A DNA stretch of 64,000 bases from NCBI GenBank assembly GCA_019637955.1, contig JAHBUS010000001.1, positions 186,001 to 250,000 on the forward strand, written 5' to 3'. Both the position numbers and the translations under genes were made by a program. Under the pieces are notes generated by a model. It was given only the letters and a program-made list of their open reading frames with translations. It had not been told where the DNA came from and ran no database searches. The stretch is from Pseudobdellovibrionaceae bacterium (lineage in GTDB: Bacteria; Bdellovibrionota; Bdellovibrionia; Bdellovibrionales; Bdellovibrionaceae). Positions 5,038 through 17,834 of the stretch are shown here, in pieces (position 1 is the first letter of the stretch; the number at the start of each line of letters is the position of its first letter).

Positions 5038-6063
5038 CTAGTAGTCACAGGCGGCCACCTTCGGCTGCACGCCGCAAGGGCTCTTTGACGGAATAATTTC
5101 GAGGCGGTCCGACCATTCACCGTTGGCATCGCATTTCATGCGCACGCATTTCACGTTGGCAAGCTCCAGACGGCAGGCCTTCTTTTCTTTTTTGGGATTG
5201 TTCTCGCAGACCCAAGCACACTCGTTCAAACGGGCCGAGGGACTTTTGCAGATCGCGCCCGCACGCGCCTTTTCTTTGAGACGAACGGCATCAGCGGCTT
5301 TTTCCTTGTGGGCGATCTTTTCAACCTCGGTCCACCACATCTGCGCGGGCGCGAGGTTCGACTTTTTCTTGGGCTCGACTTTTCCGCGCGCGACTTTACG
5401 CCCCTGCAAAAGGACGTCGAAGACGATCTCCCCACCTTCGATCACGCCTTGGAACGTCGCCTCTTCGCCGCGCTCCAGAGGTGTGAACTCCTCGTTCTCG
5501 AGACCTCGAAACGCCGTGCGGCCTTCCAGCACCGCCACGCGAAGACGCGCGGCCGCCGGGTCCAAGTCAAAGACCAGATCCGCCTCCGCGTAACTGTCGC
5601 GCGAAAGTGGCGTCACCACCAACCGTGGCGACGAGGTCAGGTTTTGTAGGCGCATGGTTCCTTTTTCGAGCTCGATGCGCTCCATGGCGCCGTCGTCCCA
5701 ACTGATCACCGGGATCGCGACCCGGCTATTGGGACCGACATAAAGCCTTTCGTTTTTGGCCAAAGCGACCTGCACGAGGGCGCTCGGACCCGTTTCAAAA
5801 ATCGCCTTCTCCCGCAAAAGCTGCTGGCGGGCCGGGGCTTTGGATTGTCCTCTGGAGTCGGTGAGCTGAACCTTTCCGGAGAAGGACATCACGTAAGGTT
5901 CTTTGAACTTCGTGACCGTGGCCTGCGCCCGCTCGTCCGCCGCCCGCGCCGGCACACTCATCGACACCGTCACGCGGCTCCCGAAAAAGGTGAAAAAGAT
6001 CAGGCCCACAGCCGTCAAAAGAAGGCTCACTTGCAGCGCGATCACGACGGGTTGTTTTGGCAT
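5038..6063 (-). CDS. FecR-like domain protein with N-terminal membrane anchor
   Basis: 341 residues. A single hydrophobic segment (about 8-28) is followed by a periplasmic part. Residues about 55-200 follow the FecR-domain pattern: K-V-Q-L-x-D, F-E-T-G-P-S-A-L-V-Q-V-A-L, N-S-R-V-A-I-P, a G-T-M-R-L-Q strand and then L-E-R-G-E-E-A. In unlinked contexts FecR domains are usually envelope or peptidoglycan-proximal scaffold proteins, not sigma regulators. The C-terminus is cysteine-rich (at least eight Cys), suggesting a disulfide-bonded module. Its start overlaps the glycosyltransferase stop by 22 bases. Confidence 0.7.
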   Translation of the reverse strand: MPKQPVVIALQVSLLLTAVGLIFFTFFGSRVTVSMSVPARAADERAQATVTKFKEPYVMSFSGKVQLTDSRGQSKAPARQQLLREKAIFETGPSALVQVALAKNERLYVGPNSRVAIPVISWDDGAMERIELEKGTMRLQNLTSSPRLVVTPLSRDSYAEADLVFDLDPAAARLRVAVLEGRTAFRGLENEEFTPLERGEEATFQGVIEGGEIVFDVLLQGRKVARGKVEPKKKSNLAPAQMWWTEVEKIAHKEKAADAVRLKEKARAGAICKSPSARLNECAWVCENNPKKEKKACRLELANVKCVRMKCDANGEWSDRLEIIPSKSPCGVQPKVAACDY

Positions 6064-6806
6064 TTCTTCGTCTCCCAGATTTTAGCCCACTTCAAAAACA
6101 CCGAATAAGCCGCGCCCACGGCGATGATAAAACCTGGAATGCCGTCCAGAAAGCCGCGCTTCCAAACGTAGCACTCGATGAATTTGCTCCAGGGCTTGAA
6201 TATCAACATCAACAGCGAAGCCTCGCGGCCGCCGTGCACCGCTTGCGCGGCCTGAAGGCTGGAGTAACGGTTGTTGGTGTCGATCTGATGATGAAGGTTG
6301 CGAAAAACCCAGTGCAAGAGCGGATGATTCAAACGTTCACGCCGGGCGCATTCTACCTTTTCGTGGATCGGGGCTTGATTCCACATGGAGTGGGCGCGGT
6401 TGAACAGCCGGAGCTGACGGTCGGGGTACCACCCACCGTGCAAAATCCAACGTCCCATGTGGAAGGACTTACGCGGCATTTCATACCCCGCCTTTGGATC
6501 GAGTGAAGAAAACTTCGCATGAATCTCGGCGGCCAGTTCGGGCGAAAGAGCCTCGTCGGAGTCCAGCGACAAGATCCAATCGTGCTGGGCCTCGCGGGCG
6601 CCGCGTGCTTTTTGCGCGCCAAAGCCCTCCCAGGAGGTTTCAAGGACGCGCGCTCCCGCTTTTTGGGCAATTTCGACGGTTTTGTCGCTGCTCCCGCTGT
6701 CAAGAACCAACATTTCCGAGACCAGGTTCTCGGCGGACTTGAGGCAGCGCTCGATGTTGAGCTCTTCATTCTTACTGATAACCACAAGACTGATCGGAAG
6801 CTTCAT
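6042..6806 (-). CDS. Family 2 glycosyltransferase, LPS-core beta-glucosyltransferase type
   Basis: 254 residues from ATG 6806, chosen because homologous sequence begins M-K-L-P-I-S-L-V-V-I-S-K-N-E. It has the GT-A landmarks of the WaaE/KdtX-like group: nucleotide-binding S-K-N-E-E-x-N-I, L-D-S-G-S-S-D-K-T, the metal-binding L-D-S-D-E-A, and the acceptor-side H-E-K-V. A hydrophobic C-terminal region would attach it to the inner membrane. It likely adds a hexose to lipopolysaccharide core or a similar envelope glycan. It is coupled to the FecR-like gene downstream, and diverges from the beta-barrel gene at 6925. Confidence 0.8.
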   Translation of the reverse strand: MKLPISLVVISKNEELNIERCLKSAENLVSEMLVLDSGSSDKTVEIAQKAGARVLETSWEGFGAQKARGAREAQHDWILSLDSDEALSPELAAEIHAKFSSLDPKAGYEMPRKSFHMGRWILHGGWYPDRQLRLFNRAHSMWNQAPIHEKVECARRERLNHPLLHWVFRNLHHQIDTNNRYSSLQAAQAVHGGREASLLMLIFKPWSKFIECYVWKRGFLDGIPGFIIAVGAAYSVFLKWAKIWETKKCQNNPS

Positions 6807-6924
6807 GAACTGCACACCCTGGCGCGCTTTAGCGCGCTCCTCTCCATTTTCGGTTGGTGCAATCCTGCTTGTCAAACCTTCCGCCGTGTCATTACCATAA
6901 CGTTGTAGCGAAAGGAGCCTTCGC

Positions 6925-7536
6925 ATGAAACGACTCTCACTCTCTGGACTTCTCCTCACCACACTCATGACGGCGCAAGCCTCGGCGTTTCTCTCGACGA
7001 GCGAAAGCGGCGAACTGACCCCGTCCGGAACCTTCCGCATCGGCGCCGAGCCTCAGCTCCGCATCAGTGACGGCAGCGGTGGCAACGTGGGCTTCTTCGT
7101 CGACTCGGGCCTCAATGACGAGTGGAGCTGGCGCGCGCAGCTCGGAACCGGCGATACCGAATTCTGGGGAACGGCTTCAGCCAAATGGGTCCCGATCCCC
7201 GACTTGGATTCGCAGCCCGCGATCGGCCTTCGTCCCGAGGTCACCTTTGGCCGCGACGAGAACGAATCGTTCAGCGTCTTTCGCGTGTCGCCCATCGTGA
7301 GCAAAAAGATCGACACCGAAATCGGCAAATTGACGCCCTACCTGGCGCTCCCGATCGGCGTCTTCGCTTGGCGCGGAAAATCCGACACCATCTCGCAGCT
7401 CGTGATTGGTTCGGAAGGCAAGTTTGAAGAGATGCCGACACTTTTGTTCACGGCCGAGCTCGGCATGAACATGAGCAAAACGTTCTCGTACGTCTCGGGT
7501 TCGATTTCGTTCTTCTTCGACGGCTCAACTCGCTAA
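6925..7536 (+). CDS. Small outer-membrane beta-barrel-like protein
   Basis: 203 residues with a strong GAAAGGAG site before ATG. The signal peptide ends A-S-A-F. The rest alternates hydrophobic and polar residues in many short strands (W-S-W-R-A-Q-L, V-T-F-G, F-S-Y-V-S-G-S-I-S-F-F-F) and closes near an aromatic residue, as in an eight-stranded-type barrel. No family recognised. It is transcribed just ahead of mreB, with a 21-base gap. Confidence 0.6.
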   Translation: MKRLSLSGLLLTTLMTAQASAFLSTSESGELTPSGTFRIGAEPQLRISDGSGGNVGFFVDSGLNDEWSWRAQLGTGDTEFWGTASAKWVPIPDLDSQPAIGLRPEVTFGRDENESFSVFRVSPIVSKKIDTEIGKLTPYLALPIGVFAWRGKSDTISQLVIGSEGKFEEMPTLLFTAELGMNMSKTFSYVSGSISFFFDGSTR

Positions 7537-7557
7537 GGTTGATTGGATAGGGGCACT

Positions 7558-8601
7558 ATGTTTTCGTTTTTGAATGATGACGGTGGTTTCGCGGCGGCCG
7601 ATTTTTACATCGACCTTGGCACCGCCAATACGCTGGTCGCGGCCCGGGGCAAGGGCGTGATCATCAACGAACCCACGCTGATCGCCTACTCGGAAATCCG
7701 CCCCGGCAAGCGCAAAGTGGTCGCCGTTGGCATTGAGGCCCGCGATAAAATCGCCGCGACTCCCGGCAACTTGATCGCCTACCGCCCCCTGAAAGACGGC
7801 GTGATCGCCGACTACGAAACCACCGAGGCCATGCTGCGCTCGTTTCTCTCGCGTCCCGGAATGAAATCCTTCTTTCGCAAACCCCGCATCGTGATCTCGC
7901 TCCCCTACGGCGTGACCGAGGTTGAAAAACGCGCGGCCATTGATGCCGGCATCTCGGCGGGAGCCAAAGACGTGTACCTCATTGACGAACCCATGGCCGC
8001 GGCCGTGGGCGCGGACCTTCCGATCAAAGAGGCCCGCGGCTCGATGATCATCGATATCGGCGGCGGAACGACCGAAGTTGCCGTCATCGCGCTGTCGGAC
8101 ATCGTCTATTGTGAGGCCGTTCGCTGCGCGGGGCACCGCTTCGACGAATGCATCGTCAATTACTTTAAGAATCGCAAGAGCCTGATCATCTCGGAAAAAC
8201 TGGCCGAAGAACTCAAAATTGAGATGGGAACCGCGGCCCCTAAAAAGAACATCCGCCTGCGCACCATCACCGGCCGCGACGCCGAGTCGGGACTTCAGCG
8301 CACGCTCGAGATCACGTCCGAAGACGTGGGTCTGGCGATGGATGAACCGATCAGTGAGATCATCACCGCGATTCACAAAGCGATCGAGAACACGCCCCCC
8401 GAACTCGTCAGCGATCTGATCGAGAGCGGCATCGTGCTGGCGGGCGGCGGCGCCTTGATCCGCGACCTCGACATTCGCATTCAAAACGAAGTGCGCCTCC
8501 CGGTGCGCATCGCCCCCGACCCTCTCACCGCGATCGCACGCGGCGGCGAAAAGGTCTTGAACGACCCCGAGCTTCTCGAAAAAATCCAAATTCAGATGTG
8601 A
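7558..8601 (+). CDS. mreB: MreB-family actin-like cytoskeletal protein
   Basis: 347 residues from ATG 7558 (GATAGGGG upstream). Actin-fold landmarks are complete: phosphate 1 loop I-D-L-G-T-A-N-T, V-I-S-L-P-Y-G-V-T-E-V-E, L-I-D-E-P-M-A-A-A-V-G, phosphate 2 loop D-I-G-G-G-T-T-E, and adenosine motif L-A-G-G-G-A-L-I. MreB polymerises under the inner membrane and guides lateral wall synthesis. No mreC, mreD, rodA or pbp gene is adjacent, so this is probably a second, stand-alone paralogue, as known in Bdellovibrio, which has two mreB genes. The last ten bases overlap the convergent aminotransferase gene. Confidence 0.93.
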   Translation: MFSFLNDDGGFAAADFYIDLGTANTLVAARGKGVIINEPTLIAYSEIRPGKRKVVAVGIEARDKIAATPGNLIAYRPLKDGVIADYETTEAMLRSFLSRPGMKSFFRKPRIVISLPYGVTEVEKRAAIDAGISAGAKDVYLIDEPMAAAVGADLPIKEARGSMIIDIGGGTTEVAVIALSDIVYCEAVRCAGHRFDECIVNYFKNRKSLIISEKLAEELKIEMGTAAPKKNIRLRTITGRDAESGLQRTLEITSEDVGLAMDEPISEIITAIHKAIENTPPELVSDLIESGIVLAGGGALIRDLDIRIQNEVRLPVRIAPDPLTAIARGGEKVLNDPELLEKIQIQM

Positions 8602-9533
8602 GCGCTCGCCGATTGATCGTCTTGAATCAAGGCCCTCAGACGGGCCGCGAGCGGATGCAGGGGGTAGGCCTTGCCTTCGTACTCGCGCACGGGTAGCACG
8701 TCGAGCGTGGTGCCCACCATCAAGAGGGCCTGGGCTTTCAAAACATCGGCTTCACGGATCACGGCTTCGCGCTCGGTCGGCACGATTCCCGCTTTTTCAA
8801 CCAACTCGAAAAGCCGCATCATCGTGCATCCGCGCAGAATTCCCGCCAACGGGGGATGGCACAGGACCCCATCTTGGCGCAGGACCACGATGTTCTCGGT
8901 CGACGACTCGGCCAACCCTCCTTGCGAGTCAAAGTTGACCGTGAAATCAAGCCCGCGCTCCAAGCTCTCGGCTTTCATCAAAACGTTGGGAAGGTAGTTC
9001 AAAGACTTGGTGATCGCAAAAATGCCGCTCTTCACGGGCACCGCGCTTTTGCCGATGCGAACACCTTGCGCGTATTTGTCGGGAGCGGGCGCCGCGAACG
9101 GCGAAATCACGATGAACAGATGCGACCCCAAACACTCGCGCGGGCTTGTTGAAAACCCTCCCGCCCCGCGGGTGACGTAAAGACGAACGAGCGTGTGTTC
9201 GTTCGGAAACTTTTCAAGACCTTGCTGAAGGATGTTTTCTAAGTCGTTGATATCCTCAGGAATCTCAAGCGCGATCCGCTGCGCCGACAACTTCAGACGT
9301 TCGAGGTGCGCACGGAGCAGGTAGGGCTTTCGCTTCACGCCTCGAAGCGCTTCAAAGACGCCATCGCCGCGGTGAAACCCGTGATCGTCGATCCCGACAA
9401 GACCGCCCAGAACATGATCGGTCCACCCGCCGGCCTGCGACGAATAAACAAACAGAGGGCCCTGGACCCGGGGCCGGGCTTTGAGTTTTTCAATGATTTC
9501 ACTTTCGGAAAGCCATGTTACGCTTTTGGGCAT
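8592..9533 (-). CDS. PLP-dependent class IV aminotransferase
   Basis: 313 residues, fold-type IV. The N-terminal G-D-G-V-F-E-A-L-R motif, the PLP-lysine region T-K-S-L-N-Y (Lys about 173), the E-S-S-T-E-N-I pattern and P-L-A-G-I-L-R-G-C-T are all present. These are shared by branched-chain aminotransferase, D-amino-acid transaminase and aminodeoxychorismate lyase, and sequence alone does not separate them here. No ilv, pab or D-amino-acid genes flank it. The start has no obvious Shine-Dalgarno sequence. Its 3' end overlaps mreB. Confidence 0.85.
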   Translation of the reverse strand: MPKSVTWLSESEIIEKLKARPRVQGPLFVYSSQAGGWTDHVLGGLVGIDDHGFHRGDGVFEALRGVKRKPYLLRAHLERLKLSAQRIALEIPEDINDLENILQQGLEKFPNEHTLVRLYVTRGAGGFSTSPRECLGSHLFIVISPFAAPAPDKYAQGVRIGKSAVPVKSGIFAITKSLNYLPNVLMKAESLERGLDFTVNFDSQGGLAESSTENIVVLRQDGVLCHPPLAGILRGCTMMRLFELVEKAGIVPTEREAVIREADVLKAQALLMVGTTLDVLPVREYEGKAYPLHPLAARLRALIQDDQSASAHI

Positions 9534-9575
9534 ATTGATCCACGTTTTGAAAATGTCTTACCAAGGATGGTCCCA

Positions 9576-10655
9576 ATGAATTCGGCGCTCTTCAAGATGA
9601 TCTTGCTCTCGATGATCTTCGCCAACGTTTCTTGCGCGCTGAAGACCAAGACCCGCGAGCGCCCGGCCATCCCGACCCAGACCTCCGAAATGAACGAGCA
9701 CACGGGTCCCGCCGATAAAGTCGCCGCGACGACCGAACCCGCCGCCGCCAGCACAGAGCCGGTGGCGACCGAAACGCCCGCGGCTCCGGCCGCTGAGCCC
9801 GCCCCCGTCGATGTCGCTGTCGCCGCGCCGACCGAACCGATCCCGGTCGAGACGTCGTCTTCGAACTTGGACGAGGGCCCCTCGATTCAATTGAAGAAAA
9901 TCGACACGTCGACCAAGTCCACGCCGGCCCCCGCCAAAGGCAAAGCGATCCTAATTGGCGGCGCCACAACCGCGACGGCGGAGCCCGCGAAAGTGGATGA
10001 CAACTCCGCGGCCGTGGCCGCCGCGATCGAGGCCGCCACCTCGGCCCGCCCCCGCGTGAGCAATGTCGAGCCGCAAAAGGTTCTGAAATGGCTGCAGAAC
10101 GGAAACCGCCGCTTCGTGAAAGGGTTTTTGCGCAAAGACGGACAGGCCGCCGCCGACCGCAAACGCACCGCGACCGCGGCCAAACCTCACGCGGTTGTTT
10201 TTGCGAGCAGCGATTCGCGTGTTCCGCCCGAACTCGTTTTTGATCAAAAACTGGGCGAGATCACGGTCATCCGCACGCAAGGTCTGTCGCTGGATGCCGC
10301 GGCCCTTGGCTCGATCGAAACCGCCGCCGAAGACCAAGGCGTGCGCCTGATCGTGGTTTTGGGAAACACGTTTTCGGACGCCGTTCGCTCGGCGATGTCG
10401 CAGGCTCCCGATCATGACTACGGCAGCCCCTCGATGAATCACGTGATGTCCGACGTGCGCGAGCGCCTGGCCGATGTGGTCGGCACAAAACCCAGCTCCA
10501 AAGACATGGCCCTGGAATCGTGGCTCAACACCCGCCGTGCCGCGAGTGACCTTGTGAAGCGCTCGGCCATGCTGGAAACCAGCGCCAAGAGCGGCCAAGT
10601 GGTCATCCGCAGCGCCATGTACCATGCCGAAACCGGCACCGTTGAGTTCGAATAA
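9576..10655 (+). CDS. Lipoprotein with zinc-less beta-carbonic-anhydrase domain
   Basis: 359 residues from ATG 9576 (AAGGA upstream). The lipobox is A-N-V-S-C20. Residues 25-160 are a low-complexity Ala/Pro/Thr/Glu linker, long enough to span periplasm. Residues about 165-359 match the beta-carbonic-anhydrase fold: W-L-x-x-G-N-R-R-F, S-S-D-S-R-V-P-P-E-L-V-F-D-Q-x-L-G-E, V-I-R-T-Q-G and I-V-V-L-G-N. However, all three zinc ligands of the family are replaced: C to Ser211 in C-S-D-S-R, H to Asn264 and C to Ser267 in G-H-x-x-C-G-A-V. The Asp-Arg dyad (D213, R215) remains. It cannot bind zinc in the usual way, so a structural or binding role is inferred. It lies 48 bases before metG. Confidence 0.8.
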   Translation: MNSALFKMILLSMIFANVSCALKTKTRERPAIPTQTSEMNEHTGPADKVAATTEPAAASTEPVATETPAAPAAEPAPVDVAVAAPTEPIPVETSSSNLDEGPSIQLKKIDTSTKSTPAPAKGKAILIGGATTATAEPAKVDDNSAAVAAAIEAATSARPRVSNVEPQKVLKWLQNGNRRFVKGFLRKDGQAAADRKRTATAAKPHAVVFASSDSRVPPELVFDQKLGEITVIRTQGLSLDAAALGSIETAAEDQGVRLIVVLGNTFSDAVRSAMSQAPDHDYGSPSMNHVMSDVRERLADVVGTKPSSKDMALESWLNTRRAASDLVKRSAMLETSAKSGQVVIRSAMYHAETGTVEFE

Positions 10656-10703
10656 TCCTCTCGAGAATTGCCTTTAGACCGGGTTTGGATGACACTGGGA
10701 CGC

Positions 10704-12800
10704 ATGTCCACACCCCGTCAAATCCTGGTCACGACCGCGCTCCCCTACGCCAACGGCCCTCTGCATTTGGGCCATATGTTCGAAGGCCTTTACGCCGATT
10801 TTTGGGTGCGCTTCCAAAAAATGCGGGGCCATCAAGTTCTCTTCATCTGCGCCGATGACACGCACGGCACGCCCATCATGGTCGAAGCCCGCAAGCGCCA
10901 AATCACACCCGAGCAGTTGATCGATGAGGCGTGGAAAGATCACGTCAAAGATTTTAAAGCCTTTTCCATCGAGCACAGCCATTATTCGTCGACCAATTCG
11001 CCGGCGAACAAAGAGCTCTGCGAGCACTTCTTTGCCAAGATGAAAGAAAAAGGCAGCCTGGGCGCGAAGACCATCCAGCAGCTGTACTGCGAGCACGACA
11101 AAATGTTTTTGCCCGACCGGTTCGTCAAAGGCACCTGCCCCAAGTGCGGCGCTTTGGACCAGTACGGCGATTCGTGCGACGTTTGCGGCGCGACCTACGG
11201 GCCTTCGGATCTCAAAGATTCGTACTGCGCCGTTTGCGGCAACCCGCCGGTGAAAAAGCCTTCGGAGCAAATTCTTTTTAAGCTCAACGATTACCGCGAA
11301 TACCTGCAAGGCTGGCTCCCCAAGCACACCGCCAAAGAGACCGCCAACAAGATGCTCGAGTGGTTCGGCGAGGAGCTGCGCGAGTGGGACATCTCGCGGA
11401 ATGCCCCCTACTTCGGCTTTCAGATCCCGGGTCATCCCGACAAGTACTTCTACGTCTGGGTGGACGCGCCGATGGGCTACGTTTCATCAACCAAAGAGTA
11501 CTGCGAGAAGAACAAACTTTCGTTCGACGATTATTGGAAAAGCGACGCCAAAACCGAAGTCTACCACTTGATCGGAAAAGACATCGTTTACTTTCACACG
11601 CTGTTCTGGCCCGCGCTTTTAAAGGCCGCCGATTTCCGCTCGCCCTCGGCGGTGTGGGTGCACGGACACGTCATGGTCAACGGCGAGAAGATGAGCAAAT
11701 CCAAAGGCACCTTCTTGTCGGCCAAGGTTTACACCGATCATTTGGACCCGATGTACCTGCGTTATTACTTCGCGAGCAAATTCTCGAGCGGCGTTGACGA
11801 TGTCGACTTTAATCTTGAGGACTTCGCCCAGCGCACGAATTCGGATTTGATCGGCAAGATCACCAATCTCGCCTCGCGCGGCGCGACCATGCTGGGGGCC
11901 AAACTTGACGGCGTCATGAGTGAGCCCGATGCCGAAGGCACCGAGCTCTTAAAGCGCGCAGTCGCCAAATCTGAAGAGATCGCCCGCCACTTTGAGGAGC
12001 GCGAGTTCGTCAAAGCCATCAACGAAATCCGCGCGCTGGCTGATGAGGCCAACCGCTACTTCGACGAAAAAGCGCCCTGGAAAACGGTGGAGTCTGATCC
12101 CAAGGGCACCAAACAGGTGCTCACGACCACGCTCAACTTGTTCCGCAAATTGGCGATTTTCTTAAAACCCGTTTTGCCCGAGTACACCGCCAAGGTCGAA
12201 AAAATGTTCGGCGAAGCGCCTTACACTTGGGCCTCGAGCGAGCAGACCTTGACCGGCAAAGCCGTCGGCAAATACGAGCACCTCGCCACGCGCATTGACC
12301 CGGCCAAAATCAAGTCGATGATGGACGCCAACAAGCAAGAGCTCGCCGAGCGCGCCGAGCGCGATAAAAAATCAGGATTTGCCACCAAAGCCAAAACAGG
12401 AGCCCCCGTGAGCACAACGACCGACGCCAAACCCGCTGCCGCCCCTGCGGGACGTGATGGGGGCCTTGCGCCCGAGATCGAAATCGACAGCTTTAGCAAA
12501 GTTGATTTGCGCGTGGCTCAAATCGTCGACGCCGAGGAGATCAAAGAGGCCGACAAGCTTTTGCGCTTGAAAGTGTCGCTCGGCCCTTTGGGCGAGCGCC
12601 AAATCATCGCCGGCATTAAGAGCGCCTACTCGGCCGAGCAGCTCAAAGGGCGCTTGGTCGTGATCGTCGCCAACCTCAAGCCGCGCAAGATGAAGTTCGG
12701 CATGAGCGAAGGCATGGCGCTGGCTGCGGGCCAAGGCGGATCGGATCTGTTCTTGCTTTCACCCGACTCGGGCGCCAAACCCGGAGACCCGGTGAAGTGA
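10704..12800 (+). CDS. metG: Methionyl-tRNA synthetase with C-terminal tRNA-binding domain
   Basis: 698 residues from ATG 10704, which opens directly into the Rossmann fold (I-L-V-T-T-A-L-P-Y-A-N-G). Class I signatures are H-L-G-H near residue 22 and K-M-S-K-S-K-G. The connective insert carries two zinc knuckles of C-x-x-C type (C-P-K-C, C-D-V-C, C-A-V-C). The C-terminal 110 residues, after an Ala/Pro linker, form a Trbp111/EMAPII-type OB fold (D-L-R-V-A-Q-I-V ... G-x-R-Q-I-I-A-G-I) that drives dimerisation and tRNA binding. Charges tRNA-Met in the cytoplasm. Its stop overlaps the SpoU methylase start, a coupled translation-related operon. Confidence 0.97.
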   Translation: MSTPRQILVTTALPYANGPLHLGHMFEGLYADFWVRFQKMRGHQVLFICADDTHGTPIMVEARKRQITPEQLIDEAWKDHVKDFKAFSIEHSHYSSTNSPANKELCEHFFAKMKEKGSLGAKTIQQLYCEHDKMFLPDRFVKGTCPKCGALDQYGDSCDVCGATYGPSDLKDSYCAVCGNPPVKKPSEQILFKLNDYREYLQGWLPKHTAKETANKMLEWFGEELREWDISRNAPYFGFQIPGHPDKYFYVWVDAPMGYVSSTKEYCEKNKLSFDDYWKSDAKTEVYHLIGKDIVYFHTLFWPALLKAADFRSPSAVWVHGHVMVNGEKMSKSKGTFLSAKVYTDHLDPMYLRYYFASKFSSGVDDVDFNLEDFAQRTNSDLIGKITNLASRGATMLGAKLDGVMSEPDAEGTELLKRAVAKSEEIARHFEEREFVKAINEIRALADEANRYFDEKAPWKTVESDPKGTKQVLTTTLNLFRKLAIFLKPVLPEYTAKVEKMFGEAPYTWASSEQTLTGKAVGKYEHLATRIDPAKIKSMMDANKQELAERAERDKKSGFATKAKTGAPVSTTTDAKPAAAPAGRDGGLAPEIEIDSFSKVDLRVAQIVDAEEIKEADKLLRLKVSLGPLGERQIIAGIKSAYSAEQLKGRLVVIVANLKPRKMKFGMSEGMALAAGQGGSDLFLLSPDSGAKPGDPVK

Positions 12801-13585
12801 AGACGCCCCTGACGCATTCGGAAACCCGGTTGCTGAAGCGGATTCTCGACAAGGCCCGCGTGATCGAAAACGAACTCGCGCGCGGCCTCCCCGTTCCGGA
12901 AGCGGCGTTTTTCGAAATGAAAGTGATGTTCGGCGAACTTGCGCACTCGGGCAACCCTGACATCTCACGTTTGCAGGACAGCGCCGATCATTTTATGCCG
13001 GACATGTCGCTGCGGCATTTTTTGAACTTCTTGATTCCCGTCGAGCGCCTGCTCGACCGCAACATTAAAGACAACGATTTTCTCGTCACCAGCAAGGACG
13101 ACAAGACCAAGCCCGTAGAAAAACGCCCCTTGGTGTTTGTTCTGCACAACCTGCGCTCGGCCTTTAATGTCGGCTCTTTGTTTCGCATCGCCGAGACTCT
13201 GGCCGCGAGTCAAATCCACCTCGTCGGCTACACCGCGGGACCCGAATCCGATGGCGTTCAAAAAACTGCCATGGGCACCGATGAGCTTGTGCCTTCAGAG
13301 CGTTTTGAATCGATTGACCATTCGCTGGCGGTTCTTCGCGAACAGGGCTACCGCCTGATCGCGCTCGAGACCGCGCCCGCCAGTCTTTCGCTGTACGAAG
13401 GCCGGCTCGAATCGAAAGTGGCCTTCGTTTTGGGGAATGAGCGCTTCGGCCTGGATCATCATGTGCTGCGCCTTTGCGATGAAGTCCGGCACATCCCGCT
13501 CATGGGGCAGAAGAACTCACTCAATGTCGCAAATGCTTTGTCGGCGGCCGCCTTCGAGTGGCACCGCCAGCAACTGGAGGGTTGA
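12797..13585 (+). CDS. SpoU/TrmH-family RNA 2'-O-methyltransferase
   Basis: 262 residues starting at GTG 12797 inside a GTGA overlap with metG. The three SPOUT motifs are visible: N-L-R-S-A-F-N-V-G-S-L-F-R (motif 1), F-V-L-G-N-E-R-F-G-L (motif 2) and L-N-V-A-N-A-L-S-A-A-A-F-E (motif 3), which form the knotted SAM site. About 110 residues of helical N-terminal extension precede the catalytic domain. It methylates a ribose in tRNA or rRNA; the target nucleotide cannot be told from sequence. It sits between metG and trmO, two other tRNA genes. Confidence 0.9.
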   Translation: MKTPLTHSETRLLKRILDKARVIENELARGLPVPEAAFFEMKVMFGELAHSGNPDISRLQDSADHFMPDMSLRHFLNFLIPVERLLDRNIKDNDFLVTSKDDKTKPVEKRPLVFVLHNLRSAFNVGSLFRIAETLAASQIHLVGYTAGPESDGVQKTAMGTDELVPSERFESIDHSLAVLREQGYRLIALETAPASLSLYEGRLESKVAFVLGNERFGLDHHVLRLCDEVRHIPLMGQKNSLNVANALSAAAFEWHRQQLEG

Positions 13586-14391
13586 TGTCCGACGAGGAAA
13601 AAAAGAACGACCCGCTCGTCTTAAATCCGATCGGCTATTTCTCATGCGAAAAGAGAAACCCGTACGAGGCCGCCTCGCAAGGTTCGCTGGATCTCTCGGG
13701 GGACCGCGGGCTCATTGAGCTGCTCCCCGGGCACAACTTTGAACAGGCCGTTCGGGGACTTGGGAACATGAGCCACCTTTGGGTGTTCTTTTGGTTTCAC
13801 AACAACGAAAACTGGAAACCCTTGGTGATGGTTCCCCGCGGCTCGATCGAAAAGCAGGGCGTCTTTTCCACGCGCAGCCCTTACCGTCCCAACCCCATCG
13901 GACTTTCACTCGTCAAGATCGACCAGGTCGATCAGCGTAAAATTTGGGTGCGCGACTTTGATCTCTTGGACGGAACGCCGATCTTGGATTTAAAGCCCTA
14001 CCACCCCGAAGCCGATGTGGCCGTAAACCCCAAGCTCGGCTGGATGGAAAAACTGGGCGAACAGGAGTATGCGGTGACCACCACGGATCAGTTCGACCGC
14101 AAAGCGCAGTTTCTGCACCTGCGCGGAATCAAGCAGCTGGTGCCGTTCTGCGGTCAGCAGCTGCGCTTTGACCCCTTCAATCAAGAAAAAAAGCGCGTGA
14201 GCTTCACCTCCGAAAACGACGGCGTGCTCGCGTACCGCACCTGGCGCATTCATTTTTACACCAAAGACTTGATGATCCGCTTAGAAACGATCCGCTCGGG
14301 CTACTCCGATCGGGATCTGGCCAACAAGGCCGACGACAAATGGAAAGACAAAGACATCCACCGCGAATTTATCGCGGCGTTCGGACGGTGA
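13585..14391 (+). CDS. trmO: TrmO-like tRNA N6-methyltransferase (TsaA/YaeB fold)
   Basis: 268 residues; ATG shares its A with the preceding TGA. The signature G-V-F-S-T-R-S-P-Y-R-P-N-P-I-G-L-S is nearly identical to the TsaA/TrmO beta-barrel SAM-binding motif. Also present are the I-G-Y-F start and L-D-L-K-P-Y. TrmO methylates N6 of t6A37 in tRNAs reading ACY codons. The C-terminal third (after about residue 165) is longer than in E. coli and probably corresponds to the substrate-recognition lobe. Its 3' end overlaps the convergent MFS gene by 23 bases. Confidence 0.88.
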   Translation: MSDEEKKNDPLVLNPIGYFSCEKRNPYEAASQGSLDLSGDRGLIELLPGHNFEQAVRGLGNMSHLWVFFWFHNNENWKPLVMVPRGSIEKQGVFSTRSPYRPNPIGLSLVKIDQVDQRKIWVRDFDLLDGTPILDLKPYHPEADVAVNPKLGWMEKLGEQEYAVTTTDQFDRKAQFLHLRGIKQLVPFCGQQLRFDPFNQEKKRVSFTSENDGVLAYRTWRIHFYTKDLMIRLETIRSGYSDRDLANKADDKWKDKDIHREFIAAFGR

Positions 14392-15688
14392 TCAAAGACC
14401 CCGGCTCATCTTCGGGCGCGGGTTTGGGCGTGCCGCCCGTTTTGTTTGGACGGTTCGCCAAGACAAAGAGCGTTCGCAGCATCGCGCCCAAAACGAAAAT
14501 CAAGTAGTACCCGGCCGCCGTTTCGTCATACGAGGACAGCAGCTGCCCGCCGATAACGGTGCCGATCAAGATCGCCGTGGTCTGAAAGAAGTTGTTCCAG
14601 ATCAAAAGCTGAATTTTGTCTTTGTTCGGAAGCTCGGAAAACATCACCAAGCCCCAGGCCACTTCAAAAAGACCCCAGAAAAATCCCGAGATGCCTTGCA
14701 GAAGCACGGACTCCAGCGTGCGCGAAACAAAAAACCACAAAGCCGGGAGCGGCGACATCCCGAGCGCCCCGATAAAGAGAATGCGGCGCACGCCGAACTT
14801 CTCGATCCATTTGCGAGCCATCAAGAGTGCGAAGATCTTGCCAAAGAACAGGGCCATTTGCGTGGCCATAAAACTCAGGTAATCGAACTTGAGTTTGACG
14901 AGCAAAAATGGCGTGACGAACGAGCTTGAAATGTAAATCGCGCAGTTGAACAAAAACATGAAGGTCAGATCGCGGCGCGCCTGCGCGTTGTCTTTAAAGA
15001 CGCCCCAGGTTTTTTTTAAGAACGTGAGCCCGCGCATAACGTCGAACGGATTGCGCCGCCCCTCGCCGATGGCAGCGTTCTGGACCAGCTGCTCTTGATA
15101 CTCAATCGCCTTGTGCGCGCCCAGAAGGTACACCGACAAACAGCGCGCCAAGAACGCGACTAAAAATGGAAGCGCGTAAGCCGCGGGTCCCACGTTTCGC
15201 GACTCCACGTTGTGAAGCAAAACACCCGCGAGCAAAAGGCCCATGATCGTTCCGTACTGCGTGATCTGGCCGCGAAACGCGAAAAAGCCGGGGCGCTCTT
15301 CGTTGGGAACCAAAAAGCCCATCCAGTAGTTCCACACCGCGCCGCCCGAGTACGAGCAGGCCCAATAACACCCGATCAAAGCAAAAATGGTGATCGGCCC
15401 GGCCTTGTTGGTCATGGCGGTGATCATCAGTGCGAACAAAATCAAAGATTGCAGGGAGCAGACCAACAGCACCCAGCGTTTGGGCCGTGGCCACCTCGAA
15501 AACAGAAAGGGAGTTGCCGTTTGCAGAGCGGCGCCCATCATCATCGGCAGACCCACGACAAGGCCCGCGACGACTTCGCCCATGCCTTTGGAGATGGCGT
15601 AGGCCGCAAAAAAAGATTCTCCAGCCCCGATCATGAGGCTGGAGAAATAGGCTTCGATATAACTGATTTTTGGGGACTTAGTTCTCAC
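14369..15688 (-). CDS. MFS-family transporter
   Basis: 439 residues, GTG start within a GTGA overlap with hppA. There are about 12 hydrophobic segments in two groups of six with a cytoplasmic loop around 215-240. The N-half has the M-G-A-G-E-S-F entry and a short basic loop [10 protein letters not shown]. No substrate-specific motif was recognised. A similar permease type (DUF-like MFS with S-Y-I-E-A-Y-F at the N-terminus) occurs in Bdellovibrio-like bacteria. Translational coupling to hppA suggests that transport is driven by, or balanced against, the ion gradient made by the pyrophosphatase. Confidence 0.8.
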
Positions 15689-17751
15689 CCACCGATAGTC
15701 GCGATCAATTGCGCGATCAGCAGAGAAACGACCGACATCACTTTGATCAAGATGGCGATACCAGGACCCGAGGTGTCTTTGAACGGATCGCCCACGGTGT
15801 CACCGATAACGGCCGCTTTGTGAACTTCGGAACCTTTTTTGTGACCGGGGATGCCACCTTTTTCGATGAATTTCTTGGCGTTATCCCAAGCACCACCCGC
15901 GTTGGCCATGAAGAGCGACATGGTCGCGCCGACAGCCAAAGCTCCGGCGAGCATCCCCGCCAAGGCTTGAGGGCCCATCACGAAACCAACGACCACGGGC
16001 GAAACCACCGCGATCAAACCAGGCAGAATCATTTCGGTCAAAGCCGCTTTGGTCGCGATGTCCACGATCTTTGCGGGCTGGGGCTCGGCTTTCGACTCGA
16101 GCAAACCGGGGATCTCGCGGAACTGGCGCGCGATCTCTTGAACGATTTTTTGAGCCGCGCGGCCGACCGCCATCATCGTGGTCGAACCGACCAAGAACGG
16201 CAGAACCGAACCGATCAGAATCCCGATCAAAACGCCCGAAGACGTCAGTTCGAGAGACATTTTTGCCAGACCTTTGATCTCACGGACGTGATTCACTTCC
16301 ATGTTAAAGGCCGAGAACAAAGCCAAAACCGTGAGGATCGCCGAACCGATCGCAAAACCTTTGCCGATCGCCGCTGTTGTGTTTCCAACCGCATCGAGTT
16401 CATCGGTGATGTCGCGAACGTCTTTACCAAGACCGCTCATTTCCGAAATCCCGCCCGCGTTGTCGGCGATGGGGCCGTAAGCATCAACGGTCATGACAAC
16501 CGCGGTGCCCGCGAGCATCCCGACGGCCGAGAGGGCAATGCCGTAAAGACCCAAAGCACGGTCCGCGATGTAGGCCGCGATCACAACGATCGCGATCGGA
16601 ATCGCGGTGGATTCCATACCGACAGCCAAACCGCGGATCACGCCGGTCGCAGCGCCCGTGATGTTGGCTTCAGCCACTTGGCGGATGGGTTTCATCGCCG
16701 TGTAGTACTCGGTGATCAAACCGATCAAAGCACCGCCGAACGCGCCCGCCGCCAAAGCGACCGTCACGGACTGCGAAACGTCCCAGAGCGGGAGCAAGAC
16801 AGCCGCCGCGATGGTCAAAAGAATGGGAGGCAAGATGAGAGCATTACGCAAAACAACCGAAGGCGACATGTTGGAAACCAAACGCGCCAAGAAGATCACC
16901 ACGATCGAGATGATCATGCCCAAACCCGAGAGGAGCAGGGGCAAAGCCACCGCGGTCAAACGCGTGGTCGCTTCGTCGCCGCCGGTCACCAGACCCGAGA
17001 AGGCTTGAATGTTGACGGTCAAAGCAATCGCCATCGCCGAAACGATCGCGGCCACCATCGACTCGTAGATGTCAGCGCCCATACCGGCCACGTCACCGAC
17101 GTTGTCACCAACGTTGTCGGCGATCACGCCCGGATTGCGCGGATCATCTTCGGGAATGCCTTGAACGACTTTACCGGCAATGTCGGCACCGACGTCAGCG
17201 GCTTTGGTGTAGATCCCGCCACCGATCCGCGCGAAGAGCGCGATCGAGCTTGCGCCCACGGCGAACGAGTGAAGAATGGTCGAGATTTGATTCGACTCGC
17301 GGAAGGCCACATAAAGAGCGCCCAAACCGACGAGACCCAAGCCCGCCACCGAGAAGCCCATCACGCCGCCGCCATCAAGGGCGACGAGCAGCGATTTTGC
17401 GCGCGAGCCGGTGAACGCGGCCTGCGTGGTGCGAACGTTGGCGTAAGTCGCCGCTTTCATGCCGAAGAAACCGGCCAAGAGGCTCAAGATCGCGCCGAGC
17501 AAGAAGCAGAGCGCCGCCGTCAAACCGAGCGCGAAGAACAGCGCCACGCCCACAACGACCGAGTAGATCGCCAAGACTTTATATTCACGAACCAAGAAAG
17601 CCATCGCGCCTTCGCGGATGTAGCCGCCAATGCGGTTCATGGTTTCGTTACCGGTGGGCTGAGCTTTTACGCGCAGGTAAAGTCCAAGGGCCACGATCAA
17701 ACCGATGATTCCGGCCAAAACCGGGGTCATGAGAAGCGTCTCTGTCGTCAT
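15685..17751 (-). CDS. hppA: K+-dependent membrane pyrophosphatase
   Basis: 688 residues from ATG 17751, with about 16 membrane helices. Pyrophosphate-site motifs are intact: [45 protein letters not shown], and the C-terminal [10 protein letters not shown] plus [12 protein letters not shown]. The residue after G-N-T-T is Ala (G-N-T-T-A-A), as in the K+-dependent subfamily; K+-independent pumps have Lys there. It couples PPi hydrolysis to H+ or Na+ export; which ion is not decided here. The start region is covered by the structured leader at 17752-17834. Confidence 0.95.
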
Positions 17752-17834
17752 ATGTCTGTGAACTCCACGGGATGAGTACATCCCTCTAAGGTTTTGCGCA
17801 CCTTCGGTGCGACTAACTTAAAGAGTTCACAGAC
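17752..17834 (-). promoter_or_regulatory. Structured 5' leader of hppA (candidate three-way-junction RNA)
   Basis: In the hppA mRNA sense a perfect 12-bp outer stem joins GTCTGTGAACTC (from 17823-17834) to GAGTTCACAGAC (from 17754-17765). The stem ends two bases before the ATG, and its 3' arm includes the GAG of the only Shine-Dalgarno-like GTGGAG. Enclosed are two hairpins: CGCACC-GAA-GGTGCG (17797-17811) and GGGATG-TACT-CATCCC (17769-17784). A competing pairing of CTCTTTAAG (17817-17825) with CTTAGAG (17784-17790) would open the outer stem end. The architecture is that of a translational switch; no known riboswitch class was recognised. Confidence 0.55.

Follow-up and report, generated by a model that had tools for sequence, protein, structure and literature searches.

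A stalked lipoprotein-type beta-carbonic anhydrase homologue without zinc ligands at the metG locus of Bdellovibrionaceae

The window, the whole 64,000-nucleotide stretch of Pseudobdellovibrionaceae DNA analysed here, encodes a predicted lipoprotein with a domain of the beta-carbonic anhydrase (beta-CA) family that has lost every zinc ligand. What is such a protein kept for, if it is being kept at all? No paper on this protein turned up in searches of the literature. An earlier note on the same DNA had seen in it a new non-enzymatic role in the envelope, as opposed to decay. The question is addressed below through the active site, the orthologues at the same locus, the selection acting on them and the other carbonic anhydrases of these genomes.

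The window protein and its active site

The gene (9576..10655, + strand, stop included) encodes 359 amino acids and is assigned as a pseudo-beta-CA lipoprotein by its Pro_CA match and its same-locus orthologues. A Shine-Dalgarno-like AAGGA (9563..9567, +) lies 8 nt 5′ of the ATG at 9576, and the coding signal is normal, with a GC3 of 0.78 and a frame free of stops. The signal peptide (9576..9635, +) ends in a lipobox-like FANVSC, in which Cys20 (9633-9635) is present and Asn at -3 is atypical; almost all same-locus orthologues carry a standard lipobox. A low-complexity stalk rich in Ala, Pro, Glu and Thr follows (9636..10052, +). The earlier note had likewise described a lipoprotein on a low-complexity stalk. 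Comparison of stalks across the family also brings out a short motif of the type h-x-h-K-[KDR], which is found in 28 of the 38 lipoprotein-type stalks (shuffled stalks would give 0.9), a count inflated by related sequences. The motif stands in otherwise variable stalks (L063, L065, L066, L068, L111, L112, L118 and others). It reads IQLKK in the window (residues 104-108; 9885..9899, +) and KVVLKDQQG...KEAP in Bdellovibrio, and its location within the stalk varies by genus.

Residues 206-356 (10191..10643, +) match the full PF00484 Pro_CA profile with 68.4 bits (E 1e-18; cut-off 25.7), and the closest solved relatives of the domain are PDB chains 2a5v and 1ym3 (E 7e-22, or about 1e-54 with a family profile). 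From this homology we infer a beta-CA fold. The scaffold motifs S-D-S-R-V-P-P-E-L and I-V-V-L-G are intact, and alignments to the PDB chains and to the family bear out the reported loss of Cys-His-Cys: Ser211 (AGC; 10206..10208, +) occupies the position of the first zinc-ligand Cys, Asn264 (AAC; 10365..10367, +) that of the His and Ser267 (TCG; 10374..10376, +) that of the second Cys, beside Asp268 in place of the usual Gly.

The damage extends to the substrate pocket, which in the pea enzyme includes Gln151, Phe179 and Tyr205 besides the zinc ligands (PMC5155245). Mapped through a 1ekj alignment of the same genome's own cytosolic-type beta-CA, these positions hold Ala202 (10179..10181, +), Thr230 (10263..10265, +) and Thr249 (10320..10322, +) in the window copy; Q, F and Y stand there in 38, 36 and 39 of 41 intact relatives. 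The active-site changes are Q202A, C211S, F230T, Y249T, H264N and C267S, and the only catalytic residues retained among those checked are the dyad, Asp213 and Arg215 (10212..10220, +; family alignment). The replacements cluster at the active site. Of 46 strongly conserved columns 39 are kept, and the 7 that differ include all three zinc ligands (p about 0.002 for a random set of 7). Between residues 160 and 233 (10053..10274, +), which make up the N-terminal arm and the first half of the domain, none of the 23 strongly conserved columns that lie outside the active site has changed.

Orthologues at the metG locus and repeated loss of the active site

Upstream of the gene lies a divergent class-IV aminotransferase (8592..9533, -; PF01063 and synteny), and downstream lies metG (10704..12800, +; PF09334, PF01588 and synteny). 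About 37 genomes of Bdellovibrionaceae, that of the window included, share the order aminotransferase, CA, metG, rlmB, trmO, some of them only in the part that their contigs cover. Within the window (5038-17781) the series runs glycosyltransferase, small exported protein, MreB-like, aminotransferase, CA, metG, rlmB, trmO, and its order is conserved across the family.

Most same-locus orthologues retain the C-D-R-H-C site: 24 of the roughly 37 genomes have a complete C-H-C set in a full-length domain, 3 have C-H-C with a deletion and 10, including the window's, have lost ligands. One copy (L096, G063) combines C-H-C with a change of the dyad Arg to Gln (CDQHC). The earlier note had proposed testing whether Ser/Asn/Ser is conserved among orthologues and had named orthologues with C-H-C as evidence against its reading; such orthologues form the majority, and the window's nearest relative, G014, is one of them. 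That Ser/Asn/Ser marks a conserved new family is not supported, and as a conserved new motif it was rejected, the ligand residues differing among orthologues. Nor do the anchor and stalk point to a new role. Nearly all same-locus orthologues, intact copies too, have both lipobox and stalk, which are therefore ancestral.

On a tree of MetG and the aminotransferase, ligand loss at the locus takes about 7 changes, at least 4 of them forced by well-supported branches, under the safe assumption of losses without regains. The intact G014 is sister to the window's genome on this tree with a branch support of 97/100. The ligand sets themselves are varied: S/N/S in the window, S/H/S in G003, G/H/S in G001, S/N/- in G060, C/S/C in G006, G033, G036 and G062, C/Y/C in G030 and P/T/C in G012. 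Outside the metG locus S/N/S recurs in G097, together with P/Q/S in G120 and T/R/P in G043. The G097 copy (L106) belongs to another family of the order, and its S/N/S set arose independently; its dyad Arg has also become Ser, and it lies in a different conserved neighbourhood where its orthologues are intact.

Loss of ligands is accompanied by truncation in several copies. One metG-locus group that has lost the site includes B. bacteriovorus, and its copies are missing a section of the domain as well as the His ligand. In all, six groups are without 30-50 residues after the H-x-x-C motif, with differing deletion end points: the B. bacteriovorus group, G060, G030, G012, G043 and the C-H-C-keeping G024/G061/G064. 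The idea that the degenerate forms all go back to one event was rejected on the species tree, the differing residues and the differing deletion ends. The domain tree alone joins some long branches, L004 with L102 and L089 with L113.

Selection, paralogues and the possible fates of the protein

Ratios of dN/dS (NG86) were taken where close relatives exist; the window copy has none. They are 0.03-0.07 for the degenerate copies of the B. bacteriovorus group, 0.02-0.05 for the truncated G024/G061/G064 and 0.02-0.11 for intact pairs. Purifying selection on broken copies with close relatives is as strong as on intact ones. By these ratios the copies of the B. bacteriovorus group and of G024/G061/G064 are functional proteins. 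The latter three (L122 in G061, L120 in G024, L119 in G064) keep C-H-C and D-R, have lost about 45 residues beside the site and are strongly constrained, and so resemble an intermediate stage. Degenerate orthologues included, the domain is almost invariant in its N-terminal half, whose arm and first strands are the best-conserved part in all degenerate copies. The branch of the window copy is 2.0 times that of its neighbour genes, compared with 0.5-1.1 times for long intact branches.

Two further beta-CAs of the window's genome have complete sites; C7:281377 is exported and C9:245894 is of cytosolic type. Of 13 genomes whose metG-locus copy is degraded, 8 carry a second exported beta-CA, as do 4 of the 26 in which that copy is intact (Fisher p 0.008, relatedness ignored). 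Once relatedness is handled the association is not significant; independent pairs point in the same direction and are too few. An intact exported paralogue occurs in G000, G001, G060 and others. In G030, G012 and three of the four genomes of the B. bacteriovorus group, the degenerate copy is the only exported beta-CA. Alpha-CAs were rejected as a replacement of the lost activity, none being found in the family's genomes.

The window protein probably has a non-enzymatic job in the cell envelope. The explanation that we consider reasonably likely is an envelope pseudoenzyme that has evolved repeatedly, formed in situ from a lipoprotein beta-CA and retained as a scaffold or binding protein on a stalk. 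The sequences show that genes at the metG locus typically encode a stalked lipoprotein whose C-D-R-H-C site is complete, that the window lineage has replaced all zinc ligands and the substrate pocket but kept the scaffold, and that the same took place several times at this locus in relatives. The resulting protein presumably neither binds catalytic zinc nor hydrates CO2, and the genome's two other beta-CAs, the intact exported paralogue and the one of cytosolic type, would take care of CO2/bicarbonate chemistry. In beta-CAs the N-terminal arm and first strands form the dimer. Together with the lipid anchor and the stalk, the conserved arm and sheet at the N-terminus may hold a dimeric platform in the periplasm, which could bind a putative partner and be retained for it. 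More tentatively, a second, non-catalytic function carried by the N-terminal arm and stalk may be older than the enzyme losses, and the degenerate forms, that of B. bacteriovorus among them, may constitute a beta-CA-derived envelope scaffold family. The active site could then have been discarded many times, and the protein kept, because of this older function.

Slow decay under relaxed constraint, with the intact exported paralogue having taken over and the window copy drifting towards loss, would account for the complete loss of the active site, the roughly two-fold faster evolution of the window copy than of its neighbours and the presence of the paralogue at C7:281377; the several independent losses also look like those of a dispensable activity. 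Decay is nonetheless unlikely, as the frame is open with normal codon composition, the changes are focused on the active site and not spread over the conserved columns, and other degenerate orthologues are under strong purifying selection. The earlier claim of a non-enzymatic role and not decay is the better reading on the strength of the purifying selection on degenerate orthologues and of the 23 of 23 N-terminal columns kept in the window copy, but it holds less firmly for the window copy itself, with its long branch and no close relative.

Improbable, too, and more so than decay, is a changed pocket in which the Asp-Arg dyad and the new Ser/Asn/Ser would bind an anion or small ligand, the protein serving as a sensor, a binding protein or another enzyme. 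CsoSCA offers a precedent, its defunct beta-CA site lying close to a site for a regulatory ligand (PMC11086599), and nearly all degenerate copies have retained Asp213 and Arg215. Moreover, S/N/S arose separately in G097, with Ser and Asn at the first two positions in G060. The other losses, however, produced G/H/S, P/Q/S, S/H/S, T/R/P, P/T/C, C/Y/C and C/S/C, and such differing sets therefore indicate no common new site; Ser and Asn are each one base change from Cys and His, and several copies lack the 30-50 residues beside the site. We regard as slimmer still the chance that the protein is a non-catalytic subunit in a mixed dimer with the intact exported paralogue, after the manner of the two halves of CsoSCA. 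The best-conserved part being the dimer-forming N-terminal one would suit this arrangement, as would the paralogues of G000, G001, G060 and others, but the partner is absent where a degenerate copy stands without another exported beta-CA, as in G030, in G012 and in all but one of the four genomes of the B. bacteriovorus group.

That an enzyme has repeatedly lost its active site at a single locus, while selection preserved the rest of the protein, amounts to a natural experiment that separates catalysis from a second role. This second function is directly testable, since intact and broken orthologues can be swapped. Some Bdellovibrio genes annotated as carbonic anhydrase, including those in the group of the model predator, are probably not enzymes.

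Comparison with known systems

With beta-class CAs (PF00484; 2a5v/1ym3; NCBIfam NF011765, or PRK15219) the window protein shares a full-length match, the D-S-R motif, the scaffold and the C-terminal Y-x-x-x-x-G-x-V strand. It differs in having neither the zinc ligands nor the Gln, Phe and Tyr of the substrate pocket, and it scores 78.7 bits against NF011765, far under the 221-bit cut-off. Animal CARPs are likewise carbonic anhydrase relatives that have no zinc and fill non-enzymatic roles, as proposed for the window protein, but they belong to the alpha class, whose fold is unrelated to that of beta-CAs.

Exported beta-CAs with signal peptides occur in Gram-negative bacteria (PMC5746736). The window protein shares their export signal and expected periplasmic site, and differs from them by its lipobox-type signal, its long stalk and the absence of an active site. 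The C-terminal pseudo-domain of CsoSCA is also derived from a beta-CA, has lost its zinc site and is kept for another role, in a regulatory domain (PMC11086599). In both cases a zinc site has been lost and another role is described or proposed; the CsoSCA pseudo-domain, however, forms one chain with an active domain and belongs to carboxysomes, whereas the pseudo-CA of the window is a separate, predicted lipid-anchored protein.
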